Source: Acidobacteriaceae bacterium KBS 89
GTDB taxonomy: Bacteria > Acidobacteriota > Terriglobia > Terriglobales > Acidobacteriaceae
Length of the DNA stretch: 64,000 bases
Reading direction: 5' to 3'
Assembly: GCA_000381605.1 (NCBI GenBank)
Contig: KB906759.1
Coordinates: 1 to 64,000, forward strand
Shown here: in pieces, positions 1 through 60,140 of the stretch
How the letters are laid out: each line of letters starts with the position of its first letter
Numbering within the stretch: position 1 is the first letter of the stretch
The notes under the pieces: model-generated
Databases searched by the model: none
Seen by the model: the letters and a program-made list of their open reading frames with translations, nothing else
Told to the model about the DNA's origin: nothing
Translations under genes and position numbers: made by a program

Positions 1-942
1 AAATGGCTGGAAGAGCACGGTGTGAAGTCTGAGTTTAATGCCAGCGTCACCAATCTCGGCTTCTGCCATGATGCTGAGGGCTTTACTGTGGACCGTATTC
101 TTTGTGAACGCGACGGACGCAAGGACGAGATAAGGGTAAGGAACGAGGATTATGTAATCGTCACCCTGGGATCCATGACCGAGGCTTCCAGTTTGGGTTC
201 GATGGACTCCGCACCAATCCTCAAGGGCAAAAGCGACGGCGGTTCGTGGGCTCTGTGGGAGAAGATCGCCGATGGCCATCCTCAATTTGGCCATCCAGGC
301 AACTTCAACGATCATATCGATGAATCGAAGTGGGTTTCTTTTACTACGACCCTTCACGACCCAACCTTCTTCCACCTTATCAGAGACTTCACGGGCAATA
401 TCCCGGGCGAGGGCGGTCTTATTACGTTCCCTGAAAGTAACTGGCTTGTGTCAATCGTATTGCCTCACCAACCCCATTTCATCGGACAACCCTCGGACGT
501 AAATGTCTTTTGGGGGTATGGACTCTTCGTCGATAAACCCGGCAACTTCGTGAAGAAGCCATTGTCGGCTTGCACCGGCCGGGAGATCATGACAGAGATC
601 ATGGGTCACTTACGGATCGAGGCCGATACCCATAAAATATTGAAAACGTGTATATGCATCCCTTGCATGATGCCTTTCATAACCAGCCAGTTCCTGCGTC
701 GCGTCAAAGGCGATCGTCCCCGCGTAGTCCCTGAGCGCTCAAAGAACCTCGCGTTCATTGGGCAATTCTGCGAACTCCCTGACGACGTAGTATTCACCGT
801 GGAATACTCAGTCCGTTCCGCACAGACCGCAGTGTACTCGTTGCTCGGACTGAGCCGTACACCGCCGCCCGTATACAAAGGACACTACGATCCACGTGTT
901 CTCTTAAAGGCCTTCCTGGCGTTACACGACAAGAACGGCTAA
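1..942 (+). CDS. ohyA: Oleate hydratase, C-terminal 313 residues (5' end outside window)
   Basis: FAD-dependent hydratase family (formerly myosin-cross-reactive antigen) that adds water to the cis-9 double bond of oleate to give 10-hydroxystearate; cytoplasmic or membrane-associated. The reading frame is open from base 1, so the N-terminal FAD-binding half lies upstream. Recognisable family stretches are VIVTLGSMTEASSLG, NWLVSIVLPHQPHF and the C-terminal NLAFIGQFCELPDDVVFTVEYS. The visible part is intact to its stop. It is the left-most gene of the Usp-rich accessory island. Whether it shares the Crp-type operator of its neighbours cannot be seen because its promoter is outside the window. 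Family assignment is confident; substrate is inferred from the family. Confidence 0.9.
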   Translation, partial: KWLEEHGVKSEFNASVTNLGFCHDAEGFTVDRILCERDGRKDEIRVRNEDYVIVTLGSMTEASSLGSMDSAPILKGKSDGGSWALWEKIADGHPQFGHPGNFNDHIDESKWVSFTTTLHDPTFFHLIRDFTGNIPGEGGLITFPESNWLVSIVLPHQPHFIGQPSDVNVFWGYGLFVDKPGNFVKKPLSACTGREIMTEIMGHLRIEADTHKILKTCICIPCMMPFITSQFLRRVKGDRPRVVPERSKNLAFIGQFCELPDDVVFTVEYSVRSAQTAVYSLLGLSRTPPPVYKGHYDPRVLLKAFLALHDKNG

Positions 943-52719: not shown

Positions 52720-55700
52720 CTATTGAATGGTGAGGTTTACGGTTGCGGTTTGAATCGTGGATCCGCCGGTAGCCGCAACTGTGATCACATACGAACCTGC
52801 CGAGAGGGTGCCTGGATTTAGCGCGTTGGAATCCATCACGCCACTGCCGCAACCGGTGAGGCTAACGAGCCCCACGGTGAAGAATGCGAAGAGCAGGATG
52901 AGGCCGCTCCAGCGGCGACGCCGTGGGAAGAGAAAGAAGACCAAACAGGACAGGGCCACGGTGATACGCGGCGCGAATGTGAAAGTGCCGGGATTACCCG
53001 GATCCTTGCCGGCTTGTAAGACGGATGTGGCGGGAGAGATGGTAAGGACCGTGGTTACAGCGGAGCCATTCGGCGTAGTCGAAGACGGCGAGAAGACGCA
53101 AGCCGCGCCTGAAGGCAGGCCACCGTTGCAGGAGAAGGTGATGATGGAGTGGAAGCCTCCAGATGGGGTTGCGGTGAGTGTAATGGGGCTTGAGGTCTTG
53201 CCCAGGACTGCGGTAGCGGAAGCTGTAGAGGGAGAAAGGGTGAAGCCCCCGACCGGATCCAAGATGGTGAGGTTGGCTGCATCGGACGTGCTGGCCTGAT
53301 GGTTGCTGTCACCCGAGTAAAGAACGCGCAGGACATGCGTGCCGGACTGAAAGGTATTAGTGGGGAGAGGGAGGTTGGTCGTCACACCGGCCACTGCAAC
53401 AGGCGTCCCGAGCAGGTTGCCGTCCAGCATCAACTGCACTGTGCCGGTGGGGACGGGAGAGGCTGGCATAATGGAGGCGGCGATGGTAACCGTGGTTCCC
53501 TGCACAGCCGTGGATGGTGTGACAGCAATGGTGGTACCACTTGCAAGGCTGGCAACGGCTATCGTGAAGGACGCTGGCGCGGAGATCGAGGCTTGATAGT
53601 TGGCGTCGCCGGAGTACATGGCAGTAATTAGGTGCGCGCCCGGCGCAATCGCGAGCGAACTGCCGGAGATGCTCGCAGCGCCGGTGAACAGCGTGGCTGC
53701 GGGGCCGACGGGTTGACCGTCACTGAAAAAGGTAACGGAGCCAGTGGGCTGCGGGCCGCTGGACTGAGCGCTGCCCTTCGCGACGATTGCGGCAAAGGTG
53801 TAGTCCGACGCGGGCGAAATCTTGCTGGCAGAAAGATTGAGCGTGGTGGTACTTGCGACCTCCGTCGCTCCGGTAACGGTGACACTAACGGGCGATGAGA
53901 TGGAGGGGTTGTAGTTCGTGTCACCCGAATAGGTTGCGGTGACGGTGTTGACACCGATGGGGAGCAGATTCGCCGGAATCTTGACACTGACCGTGCCGGA
54001 GTCGGTTGAAAAAGCGGGGTAGGCATTCTGGGTGAGTATCCCAGTGGCGAAGCTAAGAGCGCCGGAGGTGAGGGTAATCAGGCCGGTAGGAGCGGAGGCG
54101 CCGAAGCCTTGCTGCCCACCCGCACCGAAGCCCCTAGCGTTCACCTGTGCTGTAAGCGTCAGGATTCCGGCCGCAGAGAGAACCGGAAGATTAACCTGCA
54201 GCGCACTGGTGGTCTGGGCCTTGGTAATGTTGATAGTCAACGGGGACGAGGTGCTGCCGTTGAAGCTGGCGTCGCCGGCGTAAGAAGCCGTAATGAGGTG
54301 GGTTCCGGGGGCAAGGGCGCGGGTCTGGTCCTCAGTATTTGAGGTGGAGTTGAGGCGGAAGGTTCCGCCGTCGAGTGGCGCGCCGAGGTCAGTGAAGAGA
54401 ACGTTGCCGGTCGCGCTTCCCTTCCCGGAGACGCCTGCGACATCTGCTCGGACAAGTATGTAGCCGCCGTACGGGTAGCTGCCGCCGCTGGCAAAAGACG
54501 TCGTTACGCCCGAGGATGGGTTGTACAGCAGAGACTGGAGGGTTGTGGTGCTTGGCTCGGGGCTGACGGTAAGAGTCAATGGATTAGAGTCGCTGGGGGC
54601 GTAGGTCCCATCACCGGCGTAGTGGGCCTGGACTGAGTAGGAGCCGCCGGGAAAGTTGCTGAGCGAGGCAGAGTAGCTGCCATTCTGGAGGGTACCGTTC
54701 TGAACTGCGCCGTTGGACGCAAGGGCGTTTATGGATACATTACCGGTAGGCGTGCCGGTGGTGGTGGCAACCTTGACGGTCGCTGAAATCTGGCTGCCGT
54801 GAGTGACAGAGGACTGCGAGAGCGTGAGCGACGTGGAACTGGCGATAAAAGTGGCGCTCGACCAGTTGCTGACTAGGTTGGCCGCATTCACGCTACCGAG
54901 GCCAGTGGCGAGATCGTATCCGACTGTGCCGCTATAACCCGACAGCACGCCGTAATGATCAGAGGAGTTGGTTACGGTGCAATTGGCCGTTCCCTTGAGG
55001 CACGGCATGGCGATGGAGCCGGTGGTGAGATCGTTGAAGACACAACTAGCGGCAGGAGCACCGGTGATGGAATCGCAACCGGTGCCGGCCTTGTTCTGTT
55101 GATTGGCGAGGTTATAGAGGACGTAGTTGGCGTTGCCTTGCCGGCTGCCAGTCTTCTGGTTGACGAGCGCCAGGATGCCGGCGAAGGCGGGGGAAGCGAC
55201 CGAGGTGCCGCCGTAGCCAGCGAAGTCGTACCCGGGAGCAGAAAGGCTACAGGGCTTGCCGTCGGCGTTGATGCTCTGCTGACAAACGACATAGAAGGCG
55301 CCGAAGAAGCCTGCGCTGCTAAAGAGGGAGACGTCGGGGACGTCGCGGACGCCATCGGCGGGGACTCCGGTGCCGGTCTGCCAGGACGGCTTCGCGTAGC
55401 CTCCCTTGCAAGTGGAGGCGGAGTTTCCGTTCGATTGGATGCAGGCACTCGGGCCGCCCCCGCCGCCGACTACTCGAAGCAGGCCCTGAGAAGTGGCGAT
55501 GCCGGTGTTGCAGACCTGTTCAGGCGTCTCGCCGGAGAAGTTGTGGGTTGTGCCGAAGACTGAATTGGTGCAGCTTTCGTTCCATGGCACCTCTGGCATA
55601 TAGCCCTTTGCGGAGGCCTGGGTGGTCGGGTTGTTGTTCGAACTCCAGTAGGCTGTGCCACCATTGGGCAGGTAGAAGTCAGTGCCGCCAACCGAGATGT

Positions 55701-57027
55701 TGTAGGGCGTGCTGGCAAGTCCATTGACGCCGATTCCATAGTTCGCCGCCTGGACGCCGGCGAGGTCGCAGCCAGCAGATCCGGAGTCGCCATTGGCGAG
55801 CAGGACGGTGATGCCCTGGGCGGCGGCCTGCTGCCAGAGAGTTTTGTAGAACGCGTTGCCGGAAGTGCCCAGGAACAGCTCGCACTGGCCATAGCTGTAG
55901 CTCATGATGGGGGCGAGGTTGTTGTTGACGATGTAGATGGCGGAGAGATCGGTGCCCTGGGTGACCTCGGTGCCCTGGGATACGACGTAATCGATCGTGG
56001 CACCCTTGGCAACGGCCGCAGACCATTGAGTGTCGATGTCGGCCTCGCCTTCGTCGCCATTCACGCCGGGATTCGGGCCGTTATAGATGATGTTGAGGTA
56101 TTGCGTTCCAGTGGGCGTTGCGGTATTGCCGAGCGGCAGATTGAAGAGCTTGCGGAAGTTGACGAAATCGGCGGGATTGATGTCGGTCTGGCCGACGATG
56201 GCGATCGTCTGACCGGTGCCGTCAATTGGAATGGCTGCGTTCCAGAGTGGAAGGACGTTGTAGATGGTGGCGAAGTCGTACGGCGTAAGGCCGTAAGAGA
56301 TGTTGCCACTCTCGTTGACCGTGAATGCGGGCTGGGCAGCGAGCTGAGTCTGGCCGGATAGCTGTGTGGCGAGGTTTGTGGCGGCGTCTTGGCGGAGGTT
56401 AGCGATCCTGTGGCTCGCAGCCCGGCGGGGGAAGTTGTTGAGCGACGCGATGCCGGCAACGACCGGCGCAAGGGCGGCGGGAACGGCGGGATCCGACGCA
56501 TTCGCGTAGTGTTGCTCGTCGCGAACCGCATAGCGGTGCATGGTCGTTCGGAAGGCGCTGCGAACCATGCCGGCGGTGCCGTTGAACTCGATGAAAGTAC
56601 GGGCAGCGTTGACCTGGATGCCCGAGAAGCCCTGCCCCGAGAGCCAGGCGGTAACAGCGGAGAGATCCCGGTCCGTAGGACCGAAGGCAGTGCCGAATGT
56701 CTCCGGCGTCAGCCACTGGTGATAGGTGGAAGAGGTCTTGTCCTGCTGCTGGTCGATGAGCTGCTGGAGAACGGTCTCCTGTTCGGCGCTGCGCTGGAGG
56801 ACCAGCACCATGCGTCGCAGAGGCGTCGCGTCGGCAAGGGCGCCCCGGTCGAACTCGGGACGGGCGAGCGGATGGGTGTTGCCTCCAAGGGTGGAGGTCT
56901 GAGAGTCATCGACTGCCTGGAGGACACGGGAGCGAGGTCTAGGCAGCGAGGACTGCGAGAGCGCCGGGACAACGGCGGCAGCGAAGACCAGGACGACAGT
57001 CACCGGAACTCTTGAGATCCAAGGCAT
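52720..57027 (-). CDS. S53 kumamolisin-like protease with Ig-like repeats and C-terminal membrane/lipobox module
   Basis: A 1435-residue secreted protease, start at 57027 (MPWISRVPVTVVLVFAAAVVPALSQ signal). Residues about 40-230 form the pro-kumamolisin activation domain; the catalytic serine peptidase (sedolisin) domain has GDEGEADIDTQW (Glu and Asp), LLANGDSGSAGCD (oxyanion Asp) and YGGTSVASPAFAGILAL (Ser). Then several Ig-like repeats with motifs like SLTLSQSSVTHGSQISATV and GDGTYAPSDSNPLTLTV. Near residue 1360 comes FTFAPRITVALSCLVFFLF-PRRRRW-SGLILLFAFFTVGLVSLTGCGSG, a hairpin of two membrane segments ending in the lipobox-like LTGC, then the last Ig strands. It is followed upstream by its paralog. 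Confidence 0.92.
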   Translation of the reverse strand: MPWISRVPVTVVLVFAAAVVPALSQSSLPRPRSRVLQAVDDSQTSTLGGNTHPLARPEFDRGALADATPLRRMVLVLQRSAEQETVLQQLIDQQQDKTSSTYHQWLTPETFGTAFGPTDRDLSAVTAWLSGQGFSGIQVNAARTFIEFNGTAGMVRSAFRTTMHRYAVRDEQHYANASDPAVPAALAPVVAGIASLNNFPRRAASHRIANLRQDAATNLATQLSGQTQLAAQPAFTVNESGNISYGLTPYDFATIYNVLPLWNAAIPIDGTGQTIAIVGQTDINPADFVNFRKLFNLPLGNTATPTGTQYLNIIYNGPNPGVNGDEGEADIDTQWSAAVAKGATIDYVVSQGTEVTQGTDLSAIYIVNNNLAPIMSYSYGQCELFLGTSGNAFYKTLWQQAAAQGITVLLANGDSGSAGCDLAGVQAANYGIGVNGLASTPYNISVGGTDFYLPNGGTAYWSSNNNPTTQASAKGYMPEVPWNESCTNSVFGTTHNFSGETPEQVCNTGIATSQGLLRVVGGGGGPSACIQSNGNSASTCKGGYAKPSWQTGTGVPADGVRDVPDVSLFSSAGFFGAFYVVCQQSINADGKPCSLSAPGYDFAGYGGTSVASPAFAGILALVNQKTGSRQGNANYVLYNLANQQNKAGTGCDSITGAPAASCVFNDLTTGSIAMPCLKGTANCTVTNSSDHYGVLSGYSGTVGYDLATGLGSVNAANLVSNWSSATFIASSTSLTLSQSSVTHGSQISATVKVATTTGTPTGNVSINALASNGAVQNGTLQNGSYSASLSNFPGGSYSVQAHYAGDGTYAPSDSNPLTLTVSPEPSTTTLQSLLYNPSSGVTTSFASGGSYPYGGYILVRADVAGVSGKGSATGNVLFTDLGAPLDGGTFRLNSTSNTEDQTRALAPGTHLITASYAGDASFNGSTSSPLTINITKAQTTSALQVNLPVLSAAGILTLTAQVNARGFGAGGQQGFGASAPTGLITLTSGALSFATGILTQNAYPAFSTDSGTVSVKIPANLLPIGVNTVTATYSGDTNYNPSISSPVSVTVTGATEVASTTTLNLSASKISPASDYTFAAIVAKGSAQSSGPQPTGSVTFFSDGQPVGPAATLFTGAASISGSSLAIAPGAHLITAMYSGDANYQASISAPASFTIAVASLASGTTIAVTPSTAVQGTTVTIAASIMPASPVPTGTVQLMLDGNLLGTPVAVAGVTTNLPLPTNTFQSGTHVLRVLYSGDSNHQASTSDAANLTILDPVGGFTLSPSTASATAVLGKTSSPITLTATPSGGFHSIITFSCNGGLPSGAACVFSPSSTTPNGSAVTTVLTISPATSVLQAGKDPGNPGTFTFAPRITVALSCLVFFLFPRRRRWSGLILLFAFFTVGLVSLTGCGSGVMDSNALNPGTLSAGSYVITVAATGGSTIQTATVNLTIQ

Positions 57028-57275
57028 TTCGATAGATTCCTGCTGCTGGAGAGGGGCAAACGGCCTTCTCCCAGCAACCAAATTGGAGCAAAGTACTACC
57101 CAAGCGAGCAGTTTGGCTTCCAAACTGCTTCACCTGTTTTTTCATCGTCTTAAGTGTTTCTTGTCACGCTGGATATGCAAATAGTTGCACACTCATGACG
57201 CCATTCTTGCGTGAGCTACTAAGAAGGTCAAGAAGGAAAGGCTACGGATTACCAAAGAGTATTCCCGTAACAGGA

Positions 57276-57302
57276 AAGGCCGCGCCAGTGCGGCGCGGCC
57301 TT
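57276..57302 (-). terminator. Rho-independent-type terminator of the S53 protease gene at 57318
   Basis: AAGGCCGCGCC and GGCGCGGCCTT (11 bp, perfect) around a 5-base loop AGTGC, 16 bp after the protease stop on the minus strand, with the T-rich tail TTTCCTGTT. Confidence 0.75.
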
Positions 57303-57317
57303 CAGTACGAATCTCGG

Positions 57318-60140
57318 CTACTGAACCGTTACAACCACTTGCGAACTGTGGACCAACGTCCCCGACACCGCAGTAATCGTGAAGGTGTAGGTGCCGCGTT
57401 GCGCATTCGTCGTCGTCGTGCCGCCGCCACCACCGCCGGGACTTCCACCGCTGTTCGAACTACTGCTGCCGCACCCGACAGCAGACACAGCGGCGGCAGA
57501 GATCAGAACCGCGAGAAGCGCACCCCAGCGACGTCGGCGTGGGAACGTAAGCAGCAGCACACAAGCGAGCGTCGCCCCTGACCCGGCGGCATACCAAGGC
57601 GTTCTACCCGAAGGATGTTGCCGCGAGGGAGCGAGGCCTGGCCGGGTGAGCTCTGCGGTGGTGGTCTGAGAAGCCTTCACGATAAACGAGGTGGTAACGC
57701 CGGCGGTGGATGTGATGTTAACCGGGGTGACCGAGAACGATGGGGTAAAGGCGCCGAGATTATTGTTGACGGCCGCCATGGTAACCGCGCCGGTAAAGCC
57801 GTTGAACGGAGTGACGGTAAAGACGATGCCGGTGGACGTCGCGCCTGAGAGGACCGTGACGCTTCCTGTGCAGGGCGTGATGGAGAAGTCTTTCAGCGTG
57901 GTGGAGACGATGTCTACGGAAGCGAAGCTGCCGTCGGAGGCGAGAAGTGTTCCCTTGGACCCCGCATAGTTGGCATCGCCGGAGTAGACCGTGCTGATCG
58001 TGTGGCCACCCGAGGAGACTCCGGCCGCAGCAGTAGTGACCATGGTGTAGCTGGCGCTGCCGCTCACCAGAGCCTGCGGCGCACCTGCTGGGACGTTGTC
58101 GACGAAAAATTGGACAGTCCCGGTTGGCGTGGTCCCCGTAATGGAGCCCGTCACGGTCGCGGTGAGCGCGAGGGTTCCGGAGGTGATCGCGCAGAGAGAG
58201 CCTGACGTCGTGAGCTTGGTGGTGGTAATTCCGGCACCGATCGCGCTGCCGGTCCCCGTCGGAACCGCACTTGCCCAGTTGGTGACCAGCATGTTGACGT
58301 TGAGTGTCCCGAGGCCCGTGGCCAGGTCATAGCCCGTTGCGGCGCCGTAGCCGATTGAGCCGCCATTGGGGCAGTTGGGTGTCCCCTGAGAACAGACCAC
58401 GGAGATGTTGCCGCTGGTGATGTCATGGAAGATGCTGGAGGCGGTTGGACCGTTCGCCAGGCCGTAGAGCGTGGGGCCGATGTTGCCGAGAGCGCCGGTA
58501 CCCAGATGCTGTTCGACCAGGGCGAGAATGCCGGCGAGGGCCGGCGCAACGAACGAAGTTCCGCCGAAGACATTCGGCTGGCCGTTCGAAGATAGGAACC
58601 CGTTGGTGCAAGAGCCCTGGCTGCAGACGACATATCCGTCGTGTTGCGCGGCGGCGTTGAGCGAAACATCAGGTACGTCTCGCGAAGAGTCGTTCGGCAC
58701 ACCAAGTCCCACCTGCCATGCGGGCTTGGCAAAAAAGCCGCTGGCACCACCGCCGCCCGCCCCGCCGTCGTCCAGACCACCAGAGGCCGTAGTTTCATTC
58801 CAGGGCACCTCGGGGATGTAGCCTTTTGCGGAGCCGGCAGATCCCGTCCCGGTGTTCCAGTATGCAGACGAATTGCTCCCCTCGTTGAACATCGTGCCAC
58901 CGGCTGACGTGGCATAAGGAGAGCTGCTCGGGAAGTCGACGTTGAGACCCTCCGAGGCAATGCCGGCGGTATCGCAGTCAGTCGCGCCAGAGTCTCCCGA
59001 CGAACTCATCACAGTGATTCCCTTGGCGTTCGCCATCTGTAGCAACTGGTTGGTGCTCGAGACGAAGCTGCTGGAAAATCCGCTCTCACATCCGCCGTAG
59101 CTGATGGTAATGATGGGTGCAATCGTGGGGCTCGTGTCGATCGCATAGGTCAACGAACTGTTGATCACGTCGGTACTGTAGATGTAGTTGATGGTAGCTC
59201 CGGGTGCGCCTGCACCTGACCACTCAACATCCAGCTGTGCCTCATCAATATCGTTTGCCGAAAAACCTGGATTAGTGCTGGTCGGCACGAGCGTCTGAAT
59301 CGGAAGAGTTGCTGACAAACCAGCGGCAGCGCGAAACGCGGTCACGTCGGCAGGGCGAATAGCGCTCTGTCCCATGACCGCGATCGTAATGCCGGTGCCG
59401 TTTAGGGTCGAGGAAGGCGGATAGTTGTAGATCGTGTAGAGGTCGGACGGAGCAATGTAGTGGCTGGTCGTACCGTTGGTCGTGACAGAGTAGAACGGTT
59501 GCAGCTGTTCTGTACTCGCGTTTCGTGCGCGGGCGCGGGGCTTCAGCTTGAAGTCGTCGAGGCCGGTCACCGCGAGGACAACCCCTGCGATAGAGGACGG
59601 CAGGGTCGGAGCGCTGAGGTTCGAGAAGTGCTGTTCGCCACGGAGCGATACGTTGTGGATCGTAGTGCCAAAGGCCTGCTGCACCTGCCCAACCGTGCCG
59701 CTAAATGTGATAAATGTGGAGCTCCGGGCGACGCTGGTGATACTGAATCCCTGGCTCGTGAGCCATGAGGACACCTTCGCGAGGTCGCTGCCGCTGAGGC
59801 CGAAGCGCGCACCGAACTGCTCCGAGGTGAGCCACTGGTGATAGCTGGGCGAGCTCGGATTGAGTTGGGCAGCCAAAAGCTGGGTGAGATCAGCCTGCTG
59901 GGCCTGGGTCATGTTGAAGCGCAGAGAGAGCGAGTCGAGCTTGCGGTCACTCGGCACCAGGCCAAGGTCAACGGAGTGCTTCGCGTGCCCACTTATGGTC
60001 CCCGGAAGTGCCATCCGGCTATTGCCGCTGACGGAGCCCGCAACGCGGTCCTGCACAACCGCCGCATGGGCGATTGTGGTGAATGAGGTGACAAGGATGG
60101 CGGCAGGGAGGACGAAAGAAGAGACAAAACGGCTGCACAT
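57318..60140 (-). CDS. S53 kumamolisin-like protease with C-terminal membrane/lipobox module
   Basis: A 940-residue paralog of the upstream protease. It has a signal peptide (FVSSFVLPAAILVTSFTTIAHA), an activation domain, and the catalytic domain with DIDEAQLDVEW (Glu and Asp), MSSSGDSGATDCD and VFGGTSFVAPALAGILAL (Ser). Only one or two Ig-like repeats follow (LTTSGSLCAITSGTLALTA), fewer than in the neighbour. The C-terminus shares the same module: TPWYAAGSGATLACVLLLTF-PRRRRW-GALLAVLISAAAVSAVGCGSSS, then a Gly-rich linker and TYTFTITAVSGTLVHSSQVVVTV. The two genes are transcribed in the same direction 290 bp apart with a terminator between them. Tandem duplication with domain loss or gain is likely. 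Confidence 0.92.
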   Translation of the reverse strand: MCSRFVSSFVLPAAILVTSFTTIAHAAVVQDRVAGSVSGNSRMALPGTISGHAKHSVDLGLVPSDRKLDSLSLRFNMTQAQQADLTQLLAAQLNPSSPSYHQWLTSEQFGARFGLSGSDLAKVSSWLTSQGFSITSVARSSTFITFSGTVGQVQQAFGTTIHNVSLRGEQHFSNLSAPTLPSSIAGVVLAVTGLDDFKLKPRARARNASTEQLQPFYSVTTNGTTSHYIAPSDLYTIYNYPPSSTLNGTGITIAVMGQSAIRPADVTAFRAAAGLSATLPIQTLVPTSTNPGFSANDIDEAQLDVEWSGAGAPGATINYIYSTDVINSSLTYAIDTSPTIAPIITISYGGCESGFSSSFVSSTNQLLQMANAKGITVMSSSGDSGATDCDTAGIASEGLNVDFPSSSPYATSAGGTMFNEGSNSSAYWNTGTGSAGSAKGYIPEVPWNETTASGGLDDGGAGGGGASGFFAKPAWQVGLGVPNDSSRDVPDVSLNAAAQHDGYVVCSQGSCTNGFLSSNGQPNVFGGTSFVAPALAGILALVEQHLGTGALGNIGPTLYGLANGPTASSIFHDITSGNISVVCSQGTPNCPNGGSIGYGAATGYDLATGLGTLNVNMLVTNWASAVPTGTGSAIGAGITTTKLTTSGSLCAITSGTLALTATVTGSITGTTPTGTVQFFVDNVPAGAPQALVSGSASYTMVTTAAAGVSSGGHTISTVYSGDANYAGSKGTLLASDGSFASVDIVSTTLKDFSITPCTGSVTVLSGATSTGIVFTVTPFNGFTGAVTMAAVNNNLGAFTPSFSVTPVNITSTAGVTTSFIVKASQTTTAELTRPGLAPSRQHPSGRTPWYAAGSGATLACVLLLTFPRRRRWGALLAVLISAAAVSAVGCGSSSSNSGGSPGGGGGGTTTTNAQRGTYTFTITAVSGTLVHSSQVVVTVQ

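Follow-up and report, generated by a model that had tools for sequence, protein, structure and literature searches.

A putative internal lipoprotein signal in the terminal Ig-like domain of exported proteins of Acidobacteriaceae

The window analysed here, a stretch of 64,000 nucleotides from Acidobacteriaceae bacterium KBS 89 (assembly GCA_000381605.1, contig KB906759.1, positions 1 to 64,000), contains two neighbouring genes for kumamolisin-like S53 proteases, called proteins 1 and 2 in the following, which end in the same kind of tail. It consists of a first transmembrane segment (TM1), an Arg-rich loop, a second transmembrane segment (TM2) that runs into a Cys, and a short C-terminal piece, and according to structure models it interrupts the last immunoglobulin (Ig)-like domain of each protein. 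The module is real, conserved and already catalogued as a putative anchor. Judging from the sequence constraints, we consider it probable that the tail acts as an internal type II lipoprotein signal placed in the loop between the Ig strands E and F, and many different exported enzymes are probably attached to the cell through a lipid close to the C-terminal end.

Two protease tails and the interrupted Ig-like domain

By translation, the tail of protein 1 reads ITVALSCLVFFLF-PRRRRW-SGLILLFAFFTVGLVSLTG-C and that of protein 2 WYAAGSGATLACVLLLTF-PRRRRW-GALLAVLISAAAVSAVG-C, which is exactly the succession of membrane segment, PRRRRW, second membrane segment and LTGC or AVGC that a preliminary description of this DNA had reported. 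After the Cys, a linker of Gly/Ser or polar residues follows in both proteins, and two beta strands complete the chain up to the stop codon. The NCBIfam model NF058595.1 (invert_tail), named lipo-invert putative C-terminal anchoring domain, matches proteins 1 and 2 with 50.5 and 52.3 bits (cut-off 37); in both cases nearly the whole model is covered and the match reaches the last residue. Hence, the module is already known to curators as a putative anchor, it differs in nothing essential from the tails of the window, and the statement of the preliminary description that no such sorting module had been described cannot be maintained. A publication describing the module was not found by title or abstract in a full-text search, which mostly does not extend to the subscription literature. 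What we can add to the catalogue entry is the constraint on the Cys and the residue before it, the resemblance to lipoprotein signals, the insertion into a known domain, the modelled fold and the breadth of the cargo.

The tail of protein 1 was modelled by AlphaFold from 68 sequences with a mean predicted local distance difference test (pLDDT) score of 81.3; the strands before the hairpin reached 87-97 and the last two strands 92-98, the two short helices were at approximately 55-75 and the linker at approximately 52. With VIA-align, 97 residues of the model range 4..179 could be placed on residues 404-502 of 2ber, a contiguous Ig domain (Z 12.5, root mean square deviation, rmsd, 1.8), while Foldseek alone gave no match for the protein 1 model at an E-value of 0.001 or better. 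The model of protein 2 (mean pLDDT 78.2) behaved similarly, with 95 residues aligned at Z 12.0 and rmsd 2.1. The assumption that a single Ig fold extends across the hairpin was thus borne out by both models. Since they place the strands following the Cys in the same Ig fold as the preceding ones, the hairpin with its lipobox is, as modelled, an insertion between strands E and F, the strand letters A to G being our own assignment.

Separate profiles for the segments preceding the hairpin and following the Cys are consistent with such an interruption. They lie 40-89 residues apart in the 92 scored tail pairs, and elsewhere both profiles adjoin, with 88 of 104 pairs, in redundant counts, found within -20 to +19 residues (13 further pairs outside the tails, at 40-69 residues, were not inspected singly). 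After removal of duplicates, 34 distinct uninterrupted Ig copies remained in 12 loci, and other families of the phylum also have the same uninterrupted domain. Furthermore, an Ig profile built from 37 uninterrupted copies was applied to 100 tails of other loci, which resulted in median scores of 35.5 bits for the intact tail, 45.5 bits after excision of the hairpin, 37.5 bits for the N-terminal part alone and 33.5 bits with a shuffled C-terminal part. In 67 tails the excised form exceeded each of the other three by a margin of over 2 bits, and in the remaining 33 it did not. That the profile covers the excised tail in a single span (88/100) was not used as evidence, because tails with a shuffled C-terminal part also pass in 60/100 cases.

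Table 1. Positions of the two protease genes and of their tail elements in the window (all on the minus strand)
Feature	Position	Strand	Remark
Protein 1	52720..57027	-	kumamolisin-like S53 protease: signal peptide, propeptide, Ig-like repeats, invert tail
Protein 1, last Ig-like domain, strands A to E before the insertion	53032..53247	-	AlphaFold, 10-residue blocks with pLDDT 87-97
Protein 1, TM1, first hydrophobic helix (putative stop-transfer)	52927..52965	-	AlphaFold model
Protein 1, PRRRRW loop, n-region of the putative internal signal	52909..52926	-	translation
Protein 1, TM2/h-region, second hydrophobic helix with lipobox LTG	52852..52908	-	AlphaFold model
Protein 1, invariant lipobox Cys	codon 52849..52851	-	sole invariant column, alignment A1
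Protein 1, C-terminal piece from the Cys	52723..52851	-	linker, strand F 52765-52797, strand G 52726-52758
Protein 2	57318..60140	-	kumamolisin-like S53 protease: signal peptide, propeptide, Ig-like domains, invert tail
Protein 2, last Ig-like domain, strands A to E before the insertion	57663..57890	-	AlphaFold model
Protein 2, TM1	57543..57596	-	AlphaFold model
Protein 2, PRRRRW loop	57525..57542	-	translation
Protein 2, TM2 with lipobox AVG	57474..57524	-	AlphaFold model
Protein 2, invariant lipobox Cys	codon 57471..57473	-	sole invariant column, alignment A3
Protein 2, C-terminal piece from the Cys	57321..57473	-	Gly/Ser linker, strand F 57363-57395, strand G 57324-57356

Regarding the proteases themselves, the domain scan found the Pro-kumamolisin activation domain (Pro-kuma_activ) in both, and both match kumamolisin 1t1e (E 2.3e-42 for protein 2, E 4.2e-12 for protein 1). 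The open reading frame (ORF) caller let protein 1 start at TTG 57123 (ORF 52720-57123); ATG 57027 precedes a typical signal peptide and is probably the start. A GC-rich, terminator-like inverted repeat is visible by eye between both genes (approximately 57270-57300, minus strand), so that they are probably transcribed separately.

The invariant Cys and the likeness to lipoprotein signals

The preliminary description had made its proposal depend on the conservation of the Cys in homologues. From 80 further stretches, a hairpin detector that did not require the Cys returned 130 candidates; the ten lacking a Cys proved on visual inspection to be unrelated proteins, and for the same reason 6 were discarded from the 120 that had one. 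This left 114 tails, 111 of them non-redundant, with a manual assignment of the Cys in L082; a number of real tails escaped the filter, including the one in protein 1's own locus (L004). The Cys is present in all 111, located 34-61 residues from the C-terminus, preceded at position -1 by G (87), A (14) or S (10) and followed by G in 77 tails. The small residues at -1 (111/111) stand out against positions -8 to -4, where G, A or S occupy only 213 of 555 cells. In a second pass, a profile with the Cys masked by X collected 139 distinct tails, i.e. the 111 from which it had been built and 28 new ones. Again, every tail had the Cys, with G (111), A (18) or S (10) before it, and this included all of the new ones (G 24, A 4). 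Where several Cys were available, the choice had preferred G, A or S at -1; in a rerun omitting this preference, more than one qualifying Cys occurred in 12 tails, and in three of these the last qualifying Cys is a second one behind the lipobox (GCGNC, GCGTGNC, GCGAGNC). Six tails that were read later, the weakest with 28.4 bits, contain it as well (6/6). Moreover, no column other than that of the Cys is invariant in alignment A1 (68 tails, mean column identity 23%) or in alignment A3 (48 tails).

One may ask if the Cys is retained for a different chemistry, such as a disulfide, metal binding or a thiol linkage, with an only incidental similarity to a lipobox. A few tails indeed have an extra Cys nearby, for example GCGNC in L011. 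However, 133 of the 139 tails contain no Cys after the last qualifying one, and the sole invariant position is always accompanied by G, A or S at -1, which makes this explanation very improbable.

The motif PRRRRW, which the preliminary description had pointed out, exists in both window proteins and is not conserved as such; what the relatives retain is a loop rich in K and R. Among the 111 tails, at least three K or R (median 5) occur between -45 and -13, and the last of them is 15-23 residues (median 19) away from the Cys. Two uncharged segments with a median length of approximately 19 residues are found on either side of this positive loop. The suggestion that the internal element resembles a lipoprotein signal, with n-region, h-region and lipobox, found support in a search with a profile of the block from -22 to +4, in which the Cys was masked. 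Run on 5413 ORFs, with the matches classed by eye, seven of its nine best non-tail matches were N-terminal lipoprotein signals (L181, L177, L075, L062, L168, L095, L166), and one of the remaining two was a signal-peptide-like N-terminus.

The same topology can be read in another way, namely as a permanent two-helix anchor in the inner membrane, in which the Cys is perhaps lipidated by Lgt and not cut, or only serves packing, and in which strands F and G are merely the remainder of the Ig domain. Two uncharged segments of approximately 19 residues around a positive loop are what is expected of a helical hairpin, and the two strands would be needed for folding anyway. Nevertheless, such an anchor leaves unexplained why the Cys is invariant and the rule at -1 is strict (139/139) while TM1 varies freely, and why the block looks like a signal peptide even with the Cys masked. 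In the minimal tail of L188, furthermore, only 12 residues separate the last K from the lipobox Cys, which is short for a spanning helix and fine for a signal peptide. We therefore regard the permanent anchor as unlikely, and continue with the internal lipoprotein signal as the favoured reading.

Distribution, cargo proteins and processing enzymes

In the window's genome, 13 hairpin-spanning matches were counted over the cut-off, and a fourteenth tail (L014) scored 31.4 bits; all 14 tails have the Cys. A tail lacking the Cys should have shown up in this genome, because all 66 candidates down to E 1 were scored. L016 and L017, which were counted over the cut-off in this genome, are uninterrupted repeats, and their frame ends in the tail L007. 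This frame of 2984 residues (G000:C3:828200-835039; L007, L016-L029) has many uninterrupted Ig copies and one terminal invert tail. A search of the window's genome with a single codon spelling of the Arg motif gave 0 matches, which is uninformative. None of the 14 control genomes had a match over the cut-off, with weak matches (E up to 1) in all of them. At E 1e-7, 38 of the 297 genomes sampled from the phylum matched, 31 from the family of the window and 7 from others. All 31 listed genomes of the family match, and no sampled member seems to be without a match, because the non-matching genomes listed, which are ordered by kinship, begin with another family. With 13 matches over the cut-off in one genome against none in 14 controls, and with 31/31 family genomes matching, chance or an annotation artefact can be practically dismissed.

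The number of tail-family matches per genome ranges within the family from at least 2 to at least 14, these being lower bounds as only 14 candidates were scored in each genome. Outside the family, true hairpin tails occur in only two of the seven matching genomes (G216 and G272, family f42; L041, L045). The other five were rejected as tail genomes: in G066 an ordinary N-terminal lipoprotein gave the best match, whereas in G169, G137, G161 and G240 it fell on an uninterrupted Ig domain. Three metagenome-assembled genomes have 8 to 11 matches each, and one of them, G299, shares its match coordinates with G112, so that the two are not independent. Eleven matches were found in G297 (locus L158), a metagenome-assembled genome titled Rhodanobacteraceae, which would be explained by a misassigned or mixed bin or by transfer. 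Tandem tail genes are common: the pair of the window is kept in L155, other pairs exist in L131, L132, L158 and L159, and three consecutive tail genes, the first crossing the edge of the locus, were seen in L097. One of the 15 matches in Edaphobacter lichenicola X5P2 is L183 (G298:C1:755745-755909), apparently a tail fragment: its frame of 113 residues contains the lipobox and the F-G strands, lacks an evident start codon and adjoins a tRNA-like stretch. Another remnant, at L015:1501-1599, consists of the F-G strands alone in an open frame of 43 residues, with no hairpin upstream in the other frames.

The proteins carrying the tail are generally of the exported type: a signal-like N-terminus was found in 68 of the 71 carriers that have an upstream stop in view, many of them with an AxA-type cleavage site by eye. 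After removal of the tail, 55 carriers were scanned for cargo domains, comprising the two proteases of the window together with 53 of 56 listed carriers, all of at most 1560 residues. The scan found pro-kumamolisin domains in 20 carriers and Big_3_5 in 25, further lamin-tail (3), Exo_endo_phos (3), FG-GAP (2), multicopper oxidase (1) and GH71 (1). Among 13 relatives of protein 2, eight keep the tail (L155-L162), four distant S53 proteases end otherwise (L163-L166), and L167, which matches in the Ig-like repeats only, has an end that we take to be a MYXO-CTERM-like tail. The tail can be regarded as a module because it is kept by 8/13 of these relatives while the distant S53 proteases end differently. 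In S53 proteases the N-terminal propeptide gets removed, hence an anchor at the C-terminus makes sense for them.

The enzymes needed for lipoprotein processing are available, with Lgt and LspA in all 58 genomes examined and LolA in 33/33. LspA is single-copy in 29/31 genomes of the family; a dedicated Lsp is therefore not indicated, and a second LspA as the responsible enzyme can be ruled out. Two or more Lgt matches were found in 28/31 family genomes versus 12/27 others; the two pieces in G017 look like one split gene. A dedicated second Lgt is not required either, as G023, G121 and G210 carry tail-family matches with one Lgt. The extra Lgt is often divergent (approximately 48-107 bits), as at G000:C4:364508-365200 (L194), G241:C1:910116-910832 (L081) and G281:C57:28843-29559 (L078), and in G241 and G281 this gene is oriented divergently to a tail-gene frame, its start and the upstream end of that frame being approximately 0.5-0.6 kb apart.

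The exosortase family (PF09721, E 1e-5) gave no match in 7 of the 33 tail-bearing genomes, among them G249, G007 and G225 with 14, 12 and 12 tail-family matches; an exosortase as obligatory partner is thus not required. This finding bears on a further alternative, in which TM1 and the Arg cluster form a sorting signal for a sortase-like protease of the exosortase/CPBP type, TM2 and the lipobox form a second signal, and the hairpin is excised on both sides. A transmembrane segment with an Arg cluster has the shape of such sorting signals, and freeing the cargo logically demands a second cut. Pro is also frequent before TM1, being present between -28 and -15 from the loop in 98/111 tails and forming a column (P92, at least 90%) ahead of TM1 in the 48 tails of A3, with no such column in A1. 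Moreover, in two genomes, which belong to different genera, a tail gene has an exosortase-family gene as its immediate neighbour (L063:8851-9888, L107:2055-3761). However, besides the genomes lacking PF09721, no motif at a fixed distance before or in TM1 emerged when the 111 tails were anchored at the loop: columns did not exceed approximately 1.6 bits, although an aromatic residue between -24 and -13 from the loop occurred in 78/111. Excision by two such signals appears clearly less probable than even the permanent anchor, and the internal lipoprotein signal remains the reading that we follow.

A proposed route and its relation to known systems

Under this reading, the N-terminal signal peptide would direct export of the protease by Sec. 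Since this signal is cleavable, TM1 would be the segment that halts the transfer, the Arg-rich loop would remain in the cytoplasm as n-region, and TM2 would lie N-in. This is the orientation of a lipoprotein signal, so that TM2, as an internal h-region, would restart the transfer and bring the lipobox Cys to the outer face of the inner membrane, where Lgt works. There, the housekeeping Lgt would add diacylglycerol to the Cys, which the sequence constraint makes quite likely, and the housekeeping Lsp would probably, with somewhat less certainty, cleave before it. The strands F and G, now starting at the lipidated Cys, may then pair back into the Ig domain and hold the cargo near its C-terminus.

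The proposal of the preliminary description that strand complementation would hold the protease proved incomplete at this point, because a cut at the Cys leaves TM1, loop and TM2 on the protease in the inner membrane. Release from there needs a second cut before TM1, which would give a two-chain cargo able to reach the outer membrane. We consider the removal of TM1 and the transfer to the outer membrane rather doubtful. Equally tentative is the assumption that the hairpin is excised after export, resulting in a two-chain Ig domain, in which chain 2 is a short F-G lipoprotein and the cargo is anchored by strand complementation, and that this serves a single acidobacterial family as its common way of anchoring.

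Several observations must be mentioned that speak against an internal lipoprotein signal or the route outlined here. As a consequence of the retained hairpin, the complex stays in the inner membrane if the Cys cut is the only one. A clear second cleavage site was not found in the 111 tails, and a natural stand-alone gene for a lipidated F-G piece was not seen. The helices of the hairpin are modelled at modest confidence in both proteins (pLDDT approximately 55-78). Regarding the signal itself, the non-tail matches of the masked block scored just approximately 7-11 bits, three of them (L168, L177, L181) came from the NCBI model itself and are hence not independent, and no Pfam lipoprotein-attachment model matched any of ten isolated segments. 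The sample leans to Cys-bearing tails, because the NCBI model, by which most loci were detected, itself includes the Cys. Furthermore, residue -3 (L 43, A 28, M 15, V 12, T 10 and others among 139 tails) is looser than in the published lipobox, whose consensus is [LV][ASTVI][GAS]C (PMC8048626).

Compared to classical lipoprotein signals processed by Lgt, Lsp and Lol, the tail shares the positive n-region, the h-region, the lipobox Cys, the G, A or S at -1 and the small residues after the Cys. The difference is the position: the Cys of the tail comes after a signal peptide, the whole cargo and a stop-transfer helix, and the signal is thus internal and not at the N-terminus as in bacterial lipoproteins. 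The MYXO-CTERM tag, recognised by myxosortase in Myxococcota, is also C-terminal, serves many exported cargos and has an invariant Cys and an Arg cluster; lipidation has been proposed for it (PMC11980579). Its order is Cys, one transmembrane segment and a terminal Arg cluster with no defined lipobox, whereas the invert tail has the order TM1, Arg loop, TM2, lipobox Cys and folded strands and hence does not belong to the MYXO-CTERM tags.

The tags of the PEP-CTERM/exosortase system have the general shape of a transmembrane segment followed by an Arg cluster. TM1 with its Arg cluster and the common Pro before it resemble this shape; a fixed motif before TM1, as in these tags, did not stand out in the 111 tails, though one Pro column does so in A3, and the lack of a PF09721 match in some tail genomes sets it further apart. 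In chaperone-usher pili, an Ig-like fold is completed by a strand from another chain in donor-strand complementation. The final state proposed here would be similar, as the Ig-like fold would be completed by strands of another chain, but here the two donated strands would come from the same gene product, after cleavage and lipidation. Entries of pilus chaperones and subunits appear among the fold matches of both models, as Ig-like folds only.

If the lipidation proves true, a family of soil bacteria anchors a large and varied set of exported proteins via a lipoprotein signal near the C-terminus, including proteases, proteins with nuclease-like domains, a multicopper oxidase, a glycosidase and repeat proteins, and apparently uses housekeeping enzymes for this purpose. 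Lgt and Lsp would then act on an internal signal that follows a stop-transfer helix, and lipoprotein signals could no longer be assumed to be N-terminal. This would also open a route to attach a lipid anchor to proteins whose N-terminus must be removed.

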